The notes beneath the pieces are model-generated. The model had not been told where the DNA came from. It searched no databases and was given only the letters and a program-made list of their open reading frames with translations. The position numbers and the translations under genes are program-made. From an uncultured Erysipelotrichaceae bacterium (GTDB lineage Bacteria; Bacillota_I; Bacilli_A; Erysipelotrichales; Erysipelotrichaceae): a stretch of DNA of 62,418 bases. Location of the stretch: the NCBI GenBank assembly GCA_947649125.1, contig CANSQL010000007.1, positions 1 through 62,418 on the forward strand, read 5' to 3'. Shown here in pieces: positions 49,572 to 55,278 of this stretch (positions are counted from its first letter, which is position 1; each line of letters opens with the position of its first letter).

Positions 49572-49690
49572 TGATCGGTATTCAGGTTATGGGTCGTTTT
49601 ATGAATCGTGTTATGGATTACCTTACGAGTTTCTTCATGAAGCGTATTATAGATTACCTTATGGATTTCTTTAAGGGTCGTTTTATACAA
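49572..49690 (+). repeat. Imperfect 36-base tandem repeat
   Basis: Two adjacent 36-base units (49608-49643 and 49644-49679; shared GATTACCTTA and TTTCTT) are flanked by a weaker unit before and a partial one after. Read on the plus strand they encode related 12-residue blocks (RVMDYLTSFFMK and RIIDYLMDFFKG), but no start with a binding site is present. Origin unknown. Confidence 0.6.
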
Positions 49691-49803
49691 AATAACACTT
49701 CAATAACACTTCAACCGACATCCATCGCATCATTAAAATCACTTTTACGCATACCGAGCTGTTACCTTAGGTACATAAATACACCCGCAGTGAGTGTTTC
49801 TAC

Positions 49804-49832
49804 TTGCCAAACAAGCCGTTTTGTATTAGAAT
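49804..49832 (+). promoter_or_regulatory. Promoter of the aro operon
   Basis: TTGCCA and TAGAAT are 17 bases apart. Transcription would begin near 49839, just before the leader-peptide binding site. Confidence 0.7.
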
Positions 49833-49855
49833 ATTGACAAACGGAGGCATAAGAC

Positions 49856-49891
49856 ATGCGTAAAAATGCTTATTTTTATTATTATGAATAG
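49856..49891 (+). CDS. Tyr/Phe leader peptide of the aro operon
   Basis: GGAGG lies eight bases before an ATG encoding MRKNAYFYYYE then TAG. Five of the last six residues are aromatic (Tyr, Phe, Tyr, Tyr, Tyr). Placed between a promoter and a terminator hairpin, 126 bases before aroB, it has the design of attenuation leader peptides such as those of enterobacterial pheA and trp, where ribosome stalling on scarce charged tRNA decides termination. Here the sensed amino acids would be tyrosine and phenylalanine, the end products of the operon. Confidence 0.75.
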   Translation: MRKNAYFYYYE

Positions 49892-49892
49892 T

Positions 49893-49981
49893 TCCTATTA
49901 GTAAACCGGCTCTGCGCATGGACTTTTTTGCTTCTAATAGGACAAACAAAAGCATCGTACCGATTCAAACGATGCTTTTTT
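49893..49981 (+). promoter_or_regulatory. Attenuator: pause-type stem and terminator
   Basis: TCCTATTAG, starting one base after the leader stop, pairs with CTAATAGGA (49934-49942; 9 bp). Then an 11-bp terminator (AAAAGCATCGT 49948-49958 with ACGATGCTTTT 49969-49979) ends in six T. A competing pairing exists: GGAC plus TGCTT (49920-49933) with AAGCA plus GTaCC (49951-49961). It lies inside the first hairpin loop and uses the terminator's 5' arm, so it could serve as antiterminator when the ribosome stalls and blocks the first stem. The terminator is clear; the switch is inferred. Confidence 0.7.
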
Positions 49982-50016
49982 CTTAAAACAGTGATAAAAC
50001 AAAAGGAGGAAACAGG

Positions 50017-51027
50017 ATGAAAATACATATGAATCTTGGTGAACACAGCTATGATATCATCTTAGAGCGCGGATGTCTTGCGAAGCTCAATGAATACGTC
50101 GATCTTTCGCATAAAGCGATGATTATCAGTGATGATCATGTTCCGCAGCAATATATCGATACGATTGCGGCGCAATGCAGGGAGCATGCTGTCCATATCG
50201 TAGCGCATGGAGAACAGGCGAAGTCAATGAACTGCTTTCAAGAAATCTGTGCTGATTTATTGACGCATCAGTTTTCACGCAAGGATATGATTATTGCGGT
50301 GGGCGGCGGTGTTGTCGGTGATTTGGCGGGATATGCGGCAGCCTCTTATATGCGTGGAATCGGTTTCATACAGGTTCCTACGACTACCCTGTCGCAAATC
50401 GATTCATCAATCGGGGGCAAGGTCGCAATCAACTTTAACGGAGTGAAGAATGTAATAGGGGCATTTTATCAGCCGAAGCTTGTGTTAGCCGATCCCGAAA
50501 CATTGAGCACACTGACGACGAGACATTATATCAACGGACTCGTTGAAGCACTGAAGGCAGGCTTGATTTATGATAAAACCTTATTAGAGTTGTTTGAACA
50601 AGATAACATTGAAAATCACATTGATGAAATTATCGCAAAAGCATTGATGGTGAAAAAAGCCGTTGTTGAACAGGACGAAAAGGAACAGGGTCTTCGTAAG
50701 ATATTGAATTTCGGTCATACGATCGGACATGCGATAGAGGCAGACAATCATCTGCATGACCTCTTTCACGGGGAATGTGTTGCGTTGGGAATGCCGTATT
50801 TTATCGGTGATCCGCTGTTAAAGGAGCGTACCCAATCGATTTGTCAAAAGCTCGGCTTGCCGATGAAGGTCGAATCCAATCATAAGGCTTGGATCGAGCT
50901 GATGAAAAATGATAAAAAAGCCGATCGTGATACGATTGATACGGTATGGGTCAATGAGGCGGGACATGCGAAAATCAAACAAATGAGCTTAACGGAAATC
51001 GAAGCTTTGTTGGAGGCATCAAAATGA
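50017..51027 (+). CDS. aroB: 3-dehydroquinate synthase
   Basis: A 336-residue NAD- and metal-dependent enzyme making 3-dehydroquinate from DAHP, the second shikimate step. AVGGGVVGDLAGYAAASYMRG, the PTTLLSQ-type PTTTLSQIDSSIGGKVAIN stretch and NFGHTIGHAIE (metal ligands) are intact. AAGGAGG precedes the ATG. It is the first structural gene after the attenuator and overlaps aroC by ATGA. Confidence 0.96.
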   Translation: MKIHMNLGEHSYDIILERGCLAKLNEYVDLSHKAMIISDDHVPQQYIDTIAAQCREHAVHIVAHGEQAKSMNCFQEICADLLTHQFSRKDMIIAVGGGVVGDLAGYAAASYMRGIGFIQVPTTTLSQIDSSIGGKVAINFNGVKNVIGAFYQPKLVLADPETLSTLTTRHYINGLVEALKAGLIYDKTLLELFEQDNIENHIDEIIAKALMVKKAVVEQDEKEQGLRKILNFGHTIGHAIEADNHLHDLFHGECVALGMPYFIGDPLLKERTQSICQKLGLPMKVESNHKAWIELMKNDKKADRDTIDTVWVNEAGHAKIKQMSLTEIEALLEASK

Positions 51028-52142
51028 AAAATACGATCGGAAGGCATATCAGCTGTACTATATTCGGTGAAAGCCACGGCAGCGCAATCGGCGTTACGTT
51101 AGACGGACTCCCGGCAGGAATTGCGATTGATGAGCAGTTTATCGCGGCACAAGGGGAAAAGCGCAAGGCAAAGGGAAGAATTTCCACTCAGCGTCATGAG
51201 GCGGATATCCCGCATATTATCAGCGGTGTATTTGAGGGCTATACAACAGGCACACCGCTTACGATTTTAATTCAAAACAACGACCAGCATTCTGCCGATT
51301 ATGAGAAAACGAAAAATCGTCTGCGCCCGTCGCATGCGGATTATACGGCAGATGTGAAGTATCTCGGTTATCAGGATTATCGCGGCGGCGGTCATTTCAG
51401 CGGCAGAATCACCGCACCGTTAGTTGCGGCAGGTGCGATAGCGATACAGATTCTTTCCGATATGGGAATTCATATCGGGAGTCATATTATGAAATGTCAC
51501 GGGGTCAGCGATGATCCCTTCGCTTCGGATATCGATTTATTGAATACGCAGATAGCGAAGCTGCAGACTGCGGCATTCCCTGTTATTAATGAAAATGCAC
51601 AAAGGGAAATGACGGCGGAAATTGAACGGGCAGCCGCTGACGGGGACAGTGTCGGCGGTATTATCGAAAGTGCCGTAATCAATCTGCCGGCAGGAATCGG
51701 AGAGCCGTTCTTTGATTCCTTGGAAAGCATTATCGCTCATTACTTGTACAGTATCCCGGCGGTAAAGGGCGTTGCCTTCGGCTTGGGCTTTCGCTTCAGT
51801 GATTATACGGGCAGTGAGGTCAATGATGCGCTTGCCTATAAAGACGGTGTCGTTATCACTGAAACAAACAACAACGGCGGTATTAACGGCGGCATCTCAA
51901 ACGGTATGCCGATCGTGATTCAAACCTGTGTGAAGCCGACTCCTTCTATATATAAGGAACAGGATACGATCAACAAACAGACGAAGCAGGCTGAAAAGCT
52001 GATTATCAACGGCCGTCATGATCCGGCCATTATACATCGTGCCTGTGTTGTCGTTGACAGTGTGTTGGCATTGGCTATATTGGATTGTTATATGGAACGA
52101 AGTGCTTCCTTAGCACTGCAGAATCATAGAAAAGAGGACTGA
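51024..52142 (+). CDS. aroC: Chorismate synthase
   Basis: A 372-residue FMN enzyme converting EPSP to chorismate. The family start GRHISCTIFGESHG (6-19), SHADYTADVKY and a GGINGGISNGMPI motif near 280-295 are present. It overlaps aroB by four bases and has GAGG upstream. Confidence 0.96.
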   Translation: MKNTIGRHISCTIFGESHGSAIGVTLDGLPAGIAIDEQFIAAQGEKRKAKGRISTQRHEADIPHIISGVFEGYTTGTPLTILIQNNDQHSADYEKTKNRLRPSHADYTADVKYLGYQDYRGGGHFSGRITAPLVAAGAIAIQILSDMGIHIGSHIMKCHGVSDDPFASDIDLLNTQIAKLQTAAFPVINENAQREMTAEIERAAADGDSVGGIIESAVINLPAGIGEPFFDSLESIIAHYLYSIPAVKGVAFGLGFRFSDYTGSEVNDALAYKDGVVITETNNNGGINGGISNGMPIVIQTCVKPTPSIYKEQDTINKQTKQAEKLIINGRHDPAIIHRACVVVDSVLALAILDCYMERSASLALQNHRKED

Positions 52143-52146
52143 TAAT

Positions 52147-53166
52147 ATGATTATTACAATGAAGAAAAATGCGCCTAAACAAGAAATCGATGCGTTGATG
52201 GGACGTCTGTCCGATCGTGGATTGAGTGTTCACTCCAGTATCGGTGAGAATTACAATGTATTCGGTTTGGTCGGTGATACTTCCGTGATCGATCCGAAAC
52301 AAATTGAGGCAAATCCTTATGTGGAAAGCGTTGTGCGTGTTGCCGCACCGTATAAAAAGGCAAATCGCTTATTCCACCCCGAGGATAGCGTTATTACGGT
52401 CGGTAATTATCGCATCGGCGGTAATGAGCCGCTTGTCGTTATCGGCGGTCCGTGTTCTATCGAGGGCTTGGAGCCGACAGTGAAAATTGCCGAGGCAGTA
52501 AAGGAAGCGGGCGGCTGTATGCTGCGCGGCGGTGCCTATAAGCCGCGTACCTCTCCTTATGCGTTTCAAGGCATGGGAACAGAGGGGATTTTGGCAATGT
52601 GTGAGGCTCGAAAACAAACCGGATTACCGATCGTTTCCGAATTGATGAGTGCCGATAAGCTGGATGAGTTTGTTGAGCATGTCGATATGATTCAAATCGG
52701 TGCTCGTAATATGCAGAACTTTGATTTATTGAAGGCTGTCGGTAAGGTGGATAAGCCGGTGCTGTTAAAGAGAGGCTTGGCTAATACGATCGAGGAATGG
52801 ATCATGGCGGCGGAATATATCATGTCAGAGGGCAATGATAAGGTCATTTTCTGTGAGCGCGGTATTCGTACCTTTGAAAAATATACAAGAAATACGCTTG
52901 ATCTCAGTGTCATTCCGATTATCAAGGAAAAGACGCATTTACCGATCATCATTGACCCGAGTCACGCAACCGGTGATTGGAAGCTTGTGGAATCAATGTC
53001 TCTTGCGGCGATTGCGGCAGGTGCTGACGGCTTGATTATTGAGGTTCATGAAAATCCCGAATGTGCGTGGTCTGACGGTGCCCAAACCTTGAAGCCGAAA
53101 AAATTCGCTGAATTGATTGCGAAGGGCAGAAGCATCGCACGTGTCATCGGGAGGGATATCGCATGA
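52147..53166 (+). CDS. aroF: DAHP synthase, type I-beta with N-terminal regulatory domain
   Basis: A 339-residue enzyme condensing phosphoenolpyruvate and erythrose 4-phosphate to DAHP, the entry to the pathway. The N-terminal ~70 residues form the ferredoxin-like ACT-like domain seen in Thermotoga DAHP synthase, where it mediates tyrosine/phenylalanine feedback. The barrel carries GGPCSIEG, RGGAYKPRTSPY and DPSHATGDW. So the operon may be controlled twice by the same amino acids: by attenuation and by enzyme feedback (inference). Confidence 0.95.
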   Translation: MIITMKKNAPKQEIDALMGRLSDRGLSVHSSIGENYNVFGLVGDTSVIDPKQIEANPYVESVVRVAAPYKKANRLFHPEDSVITVGNYRIGGNEPLVVIGGPCSIEGLEPTVKIAEAVKEAGGCMLRGGAYKPRTSPYAFQGMGTEGILAMCEARKQTGLPIVSELMSADKLDEFVEHVDMIQIGARNMQNFDLLKAVGKVDKPVLLKRGLANTIEEWIMAAEYIMSEGNDKVIFCERGIRTFEKYTRNTLDLSVIPIIKEKTHLPIIIDPSHATGDWKLVESMSLAAIAAGADGLIIEVHENPECAWSDGAQTLKPKKFAELIAKGRSIARVIGRDIA

Positions 53167-54431
53167 TTGCGAAGGTATTTCCCGGAAAATGCAGCGGAAA
53201 GCTGACGATTCCCCCAAGCAAAAGCATGGCGCATCGCTCTATCATCTGCGCTTCCTTGGCAAAGGGTGTCAGCCGTATTGATAATGTCGCGTATTCTCAG
53301 GATATTTTAACTACGATCAAGGGGATGCAGGCATTAGGTGCGCAAATCATCACGCATGATGACTTTATCGAGGTAACAGGGATCGGTAAGCCGACTGCCT
53401 GTGAAGCACGGGAAATATTCTGTAATGAAAGCGGCTCTACGCTGCGCTTCTTTATTCCGATTTTCTCTTTAACGAATCAACCGATTACGTTTACGGGTCA
53501 AGGTCGTTTGATGGATCGCCCGCAAAGTGTTTATGAAACGATATTCAAGGAGCAGGGCTTATCCTTTGTGCACAAAGACGGAACCATTTCCATAAACGGT
53601 GCATTACAGGGCGGTGAATTCATTTTAGACGGAAATGTTTCCAGTCAGTTTATCAGCGGCTTGTTGTTTGCGCTTCCGTTGTGTGATATGTCGTCTACCC
53701 TTGTGATCAAGGAGCCGTTTGAATCCCGCTCTTATGTCTGTTTAACGATGCAGATGCTGGAGCATTTCGGAATTGAAGCGGAATTCACGGATTCTAATAC
53801 GATTTATATCAAGGGCAGACAGGAGTATCATCCGGGCTGTTATTCGGTTGAGGGTGATTTCTCACAGCTTGCATTCTTTGCCTGCTTGGCTGCCTTAAAT
53901 AATGATTTAGAGGTTTGCGGTGTTCATCATAATTCTCGTCAGGGGGATAAGGTGATCATGAAGCTGTTGAAGCAGGCCGGTGTCAGCTTTAAGGAGTCGG
54001 TCAACGGTTATGTGATTGATAAAAGTGAGGTAACGGGCAGTGAAATTGATTTGGCCGATTGTCCTGATTTAGGGCCGATTCTTTGTGTGCTTGCGGCTTT
54101 TGCGAACGGTTCTACGCATATTAAAAATGCCGGCAGACTGCGTATCAAGGAGAGCGATCGCATTGCGGCGATGGAGTGTGAGCTGAAAAAGCTCGGTGTG
54201 GCAATTCGCAGTGAGGAAAATGATATTTATATTGAGGGTCAGCCTAGCTATCATGGTGATGTCGTATTTGATGCCCATAACGATCATCGCATTGCGATGA
54301 GCTTGGCAATCGCGGCTACCTTGTGTGAAAAACCTTGTACCATTGAGGGGGCAGAGGCTGTCCGCAAGTCTTATCCGCAGTTTTTTGAGGATTTGATGCG
54401 CTTGGGAATTGAGGTCGAGCGGTATGAATAA
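53163..54431 (+). CDS. aroA: EPSP synthase (3-phosphoshikimate 1-carboxyvinyltransferase)
   Basis: A 422-residue enzyme joining shikimate 3-phosphate and phosphoenolpyruvate. PPSKSMAHRSII near the start, NESGSTLRFFIP, SSQFISGLL and RIKESDRIAAM are the substrate-binding motifs. The segment NESGSTLRF replaces the usual NAGTAxR, as in class II-like enzymes tolerant to the inhibitor glyphosate (inference from motif only). It overlaps aroF by ATGA and tyrA by eight bases. Confidence 0.95.
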   Translation: MIAKVFPGKCSGKLTIPPSKSMAHRSIICASLAKGVSRIDNVAYSQDILTTIKGMQALGAQIITHDDFIEVTGIGKPTACEAREIFCNESGSTLRFFIPIFSLTNQPITFTGQGRLMDRPQSVYETIFKEQGLSFVHKDGTISINGALQGGEFILDGNVSSQFISGLLFALPLCDMSSTLVIKEPFESRSYVCLTMQMLEHFGIEAEFTDSNTIYIKGRQEYHPGCYSVEGDFSQLAFFACLAALNNDLEVCGVHHNSRQGDKVIMKLLKQAGVSFKESVNGYVIDKSEVTGSEIDLADCPDLGPILCVLAAFANGSTHIKNAGRLRIKESDRIAAMECELKKLGVAIRSEENDIYIEGQPSYHGDVVFDAHNDHRIAMSLAIAATLCEKPCTIEGAEAVRKSYPQFFEDLMRLGIEVERYE

Positions 54432-55278
54432 GGATACGCGATTTTTGATTATCGGGCTCGGACTGATGGGCGGCAGCTATGCCTATGCGCTATCAAAGCG
54501 CGGTTATCATGTTTCGGGGATCGATATCAAGCAGGAGAGCATTGATTATGCGCTTGCCAACGGTCTGATTGAACAGGGCAGCACTGATCCGCAGGCTGAT
54601 TTTATCGCTGAGGCCGATGTCGTGTTTTTCGGTCTTTACCCGAACGCTATGATTGACTGGATCAAGGCTTACGGTGCTTCGTTTCAACCGGGCTGTCTGA
54701 TCAGTGATGTTTCCGGTGTGAAGTGTAATGTCGTTGATGCGGTTCAGGAGCTGTTGAAGGATCAAGCAGTGGAGTTCATCGCTTCGCATCCGATGGCGGG
54801 TAAAGAGGTCAGCGGTGTGGTTTATGCGAATGATGCGATGTTTCAACAGGCAAATTTCATCATTACTCCGACTTCCGCGAATTCCGATGCCGCGATTTCC
54901 TTTTTACGTGAGTTTGCGAAGGAGCTGAATTTTGCGAATATCAGTGTGTTATCGGCGCAGAAGCATGATGAAATGATCGGCTATGTTTCTCAGCTTACGC
55001 ATGTGATTGCGATTTCGTTAATGAATGCGAATGATAATCCTGATTTGGTGCATTATACGGGCGACAGCTTTCGTGATCTCACAAGAATCGCACGAATCAA
55101 TGAGCATTTATGGACGGAGCTGTTCTTTTTGAACAAGGATAATTTAATTCGTGAAATCGATGATTTTGAGGAATCGCTTCAAGCGCTGAAGCAAGCTTTA
55201 TTGAATGAGGACAGTGATGCGTTGAAGCAGATGATGGTTACTTCGACAGAGCGTCGTGCTTGGTTTGATAAGAAGTAG
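54424..55278 (+). CDS. tyrA: Prephenate dehydrogenase
   Basis: A 284-residue NAD enzyme oxidising prephenate to 4-hydroxyphenylpyruvate for tyrosine. The Rossmann loop GLGLMGGSYA (about 10-19) and the catalytic SHPMAGKE (His in the middle) are present. It lacks the C-terminal ACT domain of longer homologues, so feedback would rest on other steps. The ATG after GAGG overlaps the aroA end; a start five codons earlier is less likely. Confidence 0.93.
   Translation: MNKDTRFLIIGLGLMGGSYAYALSKRGYHVSGIDIKQESIDYALANGLIEQGSTDPQADFIAEADVVFFGLYPNAMIDWIKAYGASFQPGCLISDVSGVKCNVVDAVQELLKDQAVEFIASHPMAGKEVSGVVYANDAMFQQANFIITPTSANSDAAISFLREFAKELNFANISVLSAQKHDEMIGYVSQLTHVIAISLMNANDNPDLVHYTGDSFRDLTRIARINEHLWTELFFLNKDNLIREIDDFEESLQALKQALLNEDSDALKQMMVTSTERRAWFDKK

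Follow-up and report, generated by a model that had tools for sequence, protein, structure and literature searches.

The aroB operon of this uncultured Erysipelotrichaceae bacterium is preceded by a conserved, probable leader-peptide attenuator for aromatic synthesis that, as far as sequence comparison shows, would work like classical ribosome-mediated attenuation. Tyr and Phe are probably sensed via the speed at which the ribosome reads a short leader open reading frame (ORF). By our reading of the sequences and folding models, this element is very likely a ribosome-mediated transcription attenuator that senses charged Tyr-tRNA (Tyr- and Phe-tRNA in the relatives). A first-pass annotation of the window (the whole stretch of 62,418 nt that was analyzed) had placed a promoter, a GGAGG, an 11-codon ORF, a 9-bp stem and a terminator of 11 bp and six T before aroB-aroC-aroF-aroA-tyrA, and all of these can be read directly in the sequence, as follows.

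49804 to 49809 and 49827 to 49832, + strand: promoter, TTGCCA and TAGAAT with a 17-nt spacer (10 of 12 consensus matches), also present in the near relatives L002-L004.
49843 to 49847, + strand: Shine-Dalgarno (SD) site of the leader ORF, GGAGG; most relatives have SD-like sites.
49843 to 49862, + strand: 5' side of structure A (SD and start codon region), from the MFE fold of the leader and the own-versus-swap test.
49856 to 49891, + strand: leader ORF, MRKNAYFYYYE and stop, read directly, with 51 homologous peptides.
49871 to 49885, + strand: aromatic run Y-F-Y-Y-Y, followed by one Glu codon and TAG (49889 to 49891).
49893 to 49901, + strand: 5' arm of stem B1, TCCTATTAG, beginning one base past the stop codon; identified by covariation.
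49903 to 49921, + strand: inner hairpin B2 region, CC...GG, whose arm pairing covaries in leaders with an SD-like site (SD-type leaders).
49913 to 49935, + strand: 3' side of structure A (TGCGCATG, CTT and TGCTTCT), overlapping B2 and the U-tract.
49920 to 49929, + strand: GG and then a U-tract, GGACTTTTTT, a candidate NusG-dependent pause signal by the motif definition of PMC12288461.
49934 to 49942, + strand: 3' arm of stem B1, CTAATAGGA, pairing with 49893 to 49901 over 9 bp; identified by covariation.
49948 to 49981, + strand: intrinsic terminator with an 11-bp stem (49948 to 49958 with 49969 to 49979) and six T (49976 to 49981); its arms covary.
50017 to 55278, + strand: operon aroB-aroC-DAHP synthase (aroF)-aroA-tyrA, assigned with NCBIfam, with the aroB start at 50017.

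Transcription would start at about position 49839. The products of aroB, aroC, the DAHP synthase gene and aroA scored above the curated NCBIfam cut-offs, and that of tyrA matched several prephenate dehydrogenase models, each below its cut-off. The whole leader folds at -38.2 kcal/mol (z of -4.1 versus shuffles). On both strands of the window, the leader ORF is the only one with an SD site and at least five Tyr/Phe residues making up at least 40% of the peptide, where 0.03 such ORFs per strand are expected in first-order Markov windows. Upstream of the promoter, positions 49587 to 49694 hold degenerate direct repeats of ca. 12 and 24 to 36 nt (TTATGGATTACC and similar), in five copies with 61 to 75% identity.

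The arrangement of the leader is not a product of chance. A covariance model built from seven leaders and then rebuilt twice (match threshold of E <= 0.001) retrieved 55 leaders from 40 of 273 Erysipelotrichaceae genomes, representing 21 of 60 genera. We analyzed 52 leaders, each read individually, and two late matches were also checked, while L114, L116-L119, L146, L148, L149 and L103 were dropped as chance or uncertain matches. The named relatives belong to Erysipelotrichales or Erysipelotrichaceae, and the aroB leader is also found in five other species of the source genus and in one further genus. Every leader whose downstream gene was read precedes an aromatic-synthesis gene, either aroB, DAHP synthase or an aroE-aroK fusion (shikimate dehydrogenase plus shikimate kinase domains). 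A second leader of the same genome (G000:C3:72823-72981, - strand) lies before aroE and encodes the peptide MKLHHSFFYCFTFR, followed by a stop codon. Genomes of the same order outside Erysipelotrichaceae gave a single weak match to the model (E of 0.03), and 395 genomes sampled from the class gave one match and no credible leader outside the family. The match outside the family in genome G348 (L156) was discarded as a bare terminator. The comparison of related leaders that the first-pass annotation had proposed came out in its favor, since those before aroB, aroF and aroE in 21 genera retain a Tyr/Phe-rich ORF, a covarying stem at its end and a terminator.

The 51 homologous peptides contain 141 Tyr, 99 Phe and no Trp residues (Tyr plus Phe, 37%), and their codons vary while the residues stay (TAT 98, TAC 43, TTT 93 and TTC 6). 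Exactly one codon separates the last aromatic codon from the stop in 44 of the 51, with two codons in 4 and none in 3. Leaders of DAHP synthase genes are mostly Tyr-rich, and those of aroE mostly mix Phe and Tyr. In one leader (L005:1325-1475, species G004), the ORF keeps YYY and has lost its stop codon, with reading continuing through stem B (MHKPMVDYYYALLRLEPIDRMDIFTF); stem and terminator are kept. Nine leaders without an SD site, counted after clustering at 80%, have a -10-like box near their ATG, and we infer that they may be leaderless mRNAs. In aroB leaders of this kind (L137, L138, L126, L128, L139, L140 and similar), the box lies a few bases 5' of the ATG.

Stem B1 starts at or directly after the stop codon, encloses the small hairpin B2 and has a U-rich bulge on its 3' side. 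In an alignment of 52 distinct sequences, compensatory changes were found at 9 of 9 pairs of B1 and 98.5% of cells were paired, and its covariation score was reached by none of 500 shuffles. This alignment had been fitted to the structure, and an independent own-versus-swap test was used as well, in which every 5' region is matched first with the 3' region of the leader it comes from and then with those of other leaders. With 37 leaders at 80% clustering (28 with an SD-like site and 9 without), z was -15.8 for B1 and -11.8 for the terminator arms. Hairpin B2 is weak in the source leader (CC...GG) and reads CCA(A/U)...UGG in most relatives; the z of its arm pairing was -3.9 in SD-type leaders. 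The sequence of B1 turns over completely and the inner loop of B1/B2 is not conserved, while the U-rich bulge is, and the distance from the end of B1 to the terminator is 2 to 8 nt in all leaders. The core CA of the terminator (mostly GCAUC) is nearly invariant in the 52 leaders, though B1 turns over.

Folded as a whole, the leader has as its MFE structure not B but the rival structure A, in which the SD/start region pairs with the 3' arm of B2 and the U-tract. Its own-versus-swap z was -4.5 in the 28 SD-type leaders and -0.6 in the 9 without an SD site, an absence that is expected if structure A acts on the SD site. A map with finer windows of the SD-type leaders showed it as the start region against B2 (z of -4.0), and it was less clear on the small seven-sequence alignment. 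A role for structure A as a general antiterminator regulator was rejected because leaders that have no SD site lack it. When the ribosome footprint was forbidden from pairing in constrained folding, a stall at the first aromatic codon gave mean probabilities for SD-type leaders of 0.92 for B1 and 0.04 for A, and a ribosome on the stop codon gave 0.02 and 0.57, respectively. In the source leader, the stall gave 0.58 to 0.77 for B1, and the stop position gave 1.00 for A and 0.00 for B1. In these models, the position of the ribosome would toggle between the conserved fold A, which hides the leader's own ribosome site, and B. A stalled ribosome covers the start and leaves B1 free, and one at the stop does the reverse, so that the length of the peptide and its fixed aromatic run fit a ruler.

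Within the B region, GGN1-4TTTT occurs in 45 of 52 leaders compared to 8.7 in shuffles (maximum of 16), and a strict TTNTTT within two bases of GG in 24 of 52 compared to 3.6 (maximum of 11). The combination of a hairpin with a TTNTTT-like tract is similar to a NusG pause site, and in the source leader the predicted pause signal GGACTTTTTT is preceded by the weak B2 hairpin. The NusG of the source genome reads YIVRNTPGVTGF and contains RNTPG with its Asn-Thr pair, the motif in which we take the Asn-Thr pair of Bacillus subtilis NusG to be located. Two NusG paralogues are found in the source genome as well (G000:C26:4146-4646 and G000:C13:42288-42722), the former resembling the specialized NusG proteins of the LoaP type. 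B. subtilis NusG, whose Asn-Thr pair has been named as the reader of TTNTTT, pauses polymerase at TTNTTT in positions -11 to -6 with an RNA hairpin 11 to 12 nt upstream of the RNA end, and at tlrB the NusG-dependent pause allows time for translation of the leader peptide (PMC12288461).

Put together, RNA polymerase would make the leader and pause after B2 and the U-tract, in a predicted NusG-dependent manner, which would give the ribosome time to begin translating the leader ORF. If charged Tyr-tRNA is present, the ribosome would get to the stop codon and cover the 5' arm of B1, structure A could form again across the start site of the leader, and transcription would end at the terminator. With uncharged Tyr-tRNA, it would halt in the Tyr run, cover the start region and block A, and B1/B2 would form just ahead of it, a state taken to allow polymerase into aroB. 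Comparison among the leaders establishes the aromatic ORF and its fixed distance to the stop, B1/B2, structure A in SD-type leaders, the terminator and the link with aro genes, and folding gives the toggle between A and B; the sensing of tRNA, the pausing and the lowering of termination by B1 are what we infer. Several points count against the attenuator reading. Under constrained folding, SD-type leaders form the terminator at a predicted probability of ~1.0 whatever the ribosome state, no region has a covarying pairing with the terminator 5' arm or the U-tract that is kept throughout the family, the leader L005 has no ORF stop, and ribosome and polymerase are regarded as less tightly coupled in B. 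subtilis than in Escherichia coli.

How a stalled ribosome would spare the terminator can be pictured in more than one way. In a textbook 1:2/2:3/3:4 attenuator, an antiterminator formed via the U-tract or the last codons would sequester the terminator 5' arm upon stalling. Pairings of this kind can be drawn, between the last codons and the terminator base in leaders without an SD site (z of ca. -3 to -4) and between the U-tract and AAAAG in truncated transcripts, and the portion of the ORF ahead of the aromatic run is similar to the terminator 5' arm, a likeness also seen between regions 1 and 3 of classical attenuators. However, the family as a whole showed no own-versus-swap signal between the terminator 5' arm and any upstream region, Tyr-type leaders (the source leader among them) lack the last-codon pairing, and the predicted terminator probability stays near 1, leaving the textbook arrangement rather unlikely in our view. 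The first-pass annotation had drawn a competing antiterminator pairing and judged it weak; the weakness holds, and beyond that no conserved one was found across the family. An extension of B1 via the last codons and the terminator base was rejected, being overall no better than swapped partners and better only in leaders without an SD site, and so was a pseudoknot between the U-bulge and the terminator A-run, as several terminators (e.g., those of L126 and L129) have no A-run. The terminator U-tail showed no own-versus-swap preference across the family either, and its sequestration, as proposed for Staphylococcus aureus, was dropped. An invariant pairing escapes this test, so a contact of the U-tract with the A-run could still exist. 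The pre-aromatic ORF does covary with the terminator 3' arm (z of -3.0 in SD-type leaders, -3.6 in those without an SD site and -4.2 together), and this pairing and the terminator stem would both end at the U-tract. The attenuator could also be gated by the ribosome without any base-paired antiterminator, B1 ahead of the stalled ribosome altering termination via the polymerase (pausing, NusG or NusA) and not by competing for the terminator arms, a variant that we hold to be unlikely.

Other readings give the ORF or the RNA a different part. Arrest by the nascent peptide, with YYYY or FYFYF stalling the ribosome in response to free Tyr/Phe as TnaC does with Trp, would suit a short, conserved peptide with aromatics close to the stop, but Tyr and Phe interchange freely among the homologues, the residues upstream of them show no conservation, the final residue can be E, R, Q, K, S, C or L, all three stop codons are found and the logic of a biosynthetic gene fits starvation sensing, all of which makes it very unlikely. 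Structure A, which covaries, lies over the SD site of the leader, and this would suit an element that acted on translation only, with A governing repeated rounds of leader translation and the terminator serving as a constitutive brake. This we consider highly improbable, as leaders without an SD site drop structure A and keep everything else, and the terminator covaries and sits 2 to 8 nt from B1 throughout. B1/B2 with its conserved U-rich bulge does look like a structured motif that could bind a metabolite or protein (T-box, riboswitch or TRAP-like), with the ORF being incidental, yet there is no Rfam match, the inner loop is not conserved, and nothing in the leaders is as constant as the aromatic content and spacing of the ORF, whereas the sequences of the stems turn over; we give this reading hardly any credence.

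The leader locus contains no T-box (RF00230) and no other Rfam family reaching its threshold, in line with the earlier remark that no T-box motif is present. The source genome has 18 T-box matches, 11 of them over the cut-off and none before the aro operon. They precede tyrS, pheS and trpS, and further ones lie before leuS, hisS, ileS, alaS and others, genes assigned by the first part of their protein sequences alone. A sub-threshold T-box match (G000:C35:2865-3102) was seen before a probable ABC transporter substrate-binding protein, adjacent to a metG-like T-box of the same contig. One genome thus has T-boxes at tyrS, pheS and trpS and leader peptides at aroB and aroE, so that the choice of sensor can be compared side by side.

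The aromatic leader family of Erysipelotrichaceae would add to Bacillota a regulon-wide case of leader-peptide control for aromatic amino acids, in a group in which T-boxes and TRAP are the expected devices and the coupling between ribosome and polymerase is regarded as loose, and the conserved hairpin with its TTNTTT-like tract suggests how such bacteria could synchronize the two. We found no Rfam family for it and no report in the open-access papers searched. Leader attenuation is less exceptional in Bacillota than the first-pass annotation had held, having already been predicted or supported there (PMC9413887, PMC5794164, PMC2965389, PMC8632094). It has been proposed for the his operons of Erysipelotrichales, Peptostreptococcaceae and the B. 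cereus group (PMC9413887), for hisS/hisZ in bacilli (PMC2965389) and, as the leader-peptide motif uORFC-13-1, for Acholeplasma aroF (PMC8632094), and has experimental support for S. aureus ilv-leu (PMC5794164).

The His attenuators share the host order, three to five consecutive product codons, a predicted attenuator and a terminator with our leaders but differ in the amino acid (histidine), the operon (his) and a reported antiterminator hairpin, and aromatic genes were not reported (PMC9413887). The S. aureus ilv-leu leader is likewise a case of leader-peptide attenuation in Bacillota, and the antiterminator proposed for it does not disrupt the terminator stem; it sequesters the U-tail, whereas a comparable pairing did not covary here (PMC5794164). 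Motif uORFC-13-1, compared by its published description only, shares an aromatic pathway gene, promoter, ribosome-binding site, short ORF with Phe codon(s), a further stem and a terminator. It has been reported only from Acholeplasma and environmental sequences, before aroF and with at least one Phe, while our leaders have Tyr/Phe runs and precede three operon types (PMC8632094); the sample of 395 genomes from the class may not include Acholeplasma. Like the NusG pauses of B. subtilis trp, tlrB and vmlR, the leader has a hairpin and then TTNTTT, with an Asn-Thr NusG (PMC12288461), but pausing here is predicted, and about half of the leaders have a strict TTNTTT and most GGN1-4TTTT. With the enterobacterial trp, his and pheA leaders, finally, it shares a short ORF rich in product codons, an adjoining hairpin, an intrinsic terminator and a biosynthetic operon 3' of it. 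In contrast to these, comparison of our leaders turned up no conserved antiterminator that overlaps the terminator; instead, a stem reaches from the stop codon to 2 to 8 nt before the terminator, and the alternative fold hides the leader's ribosome site.
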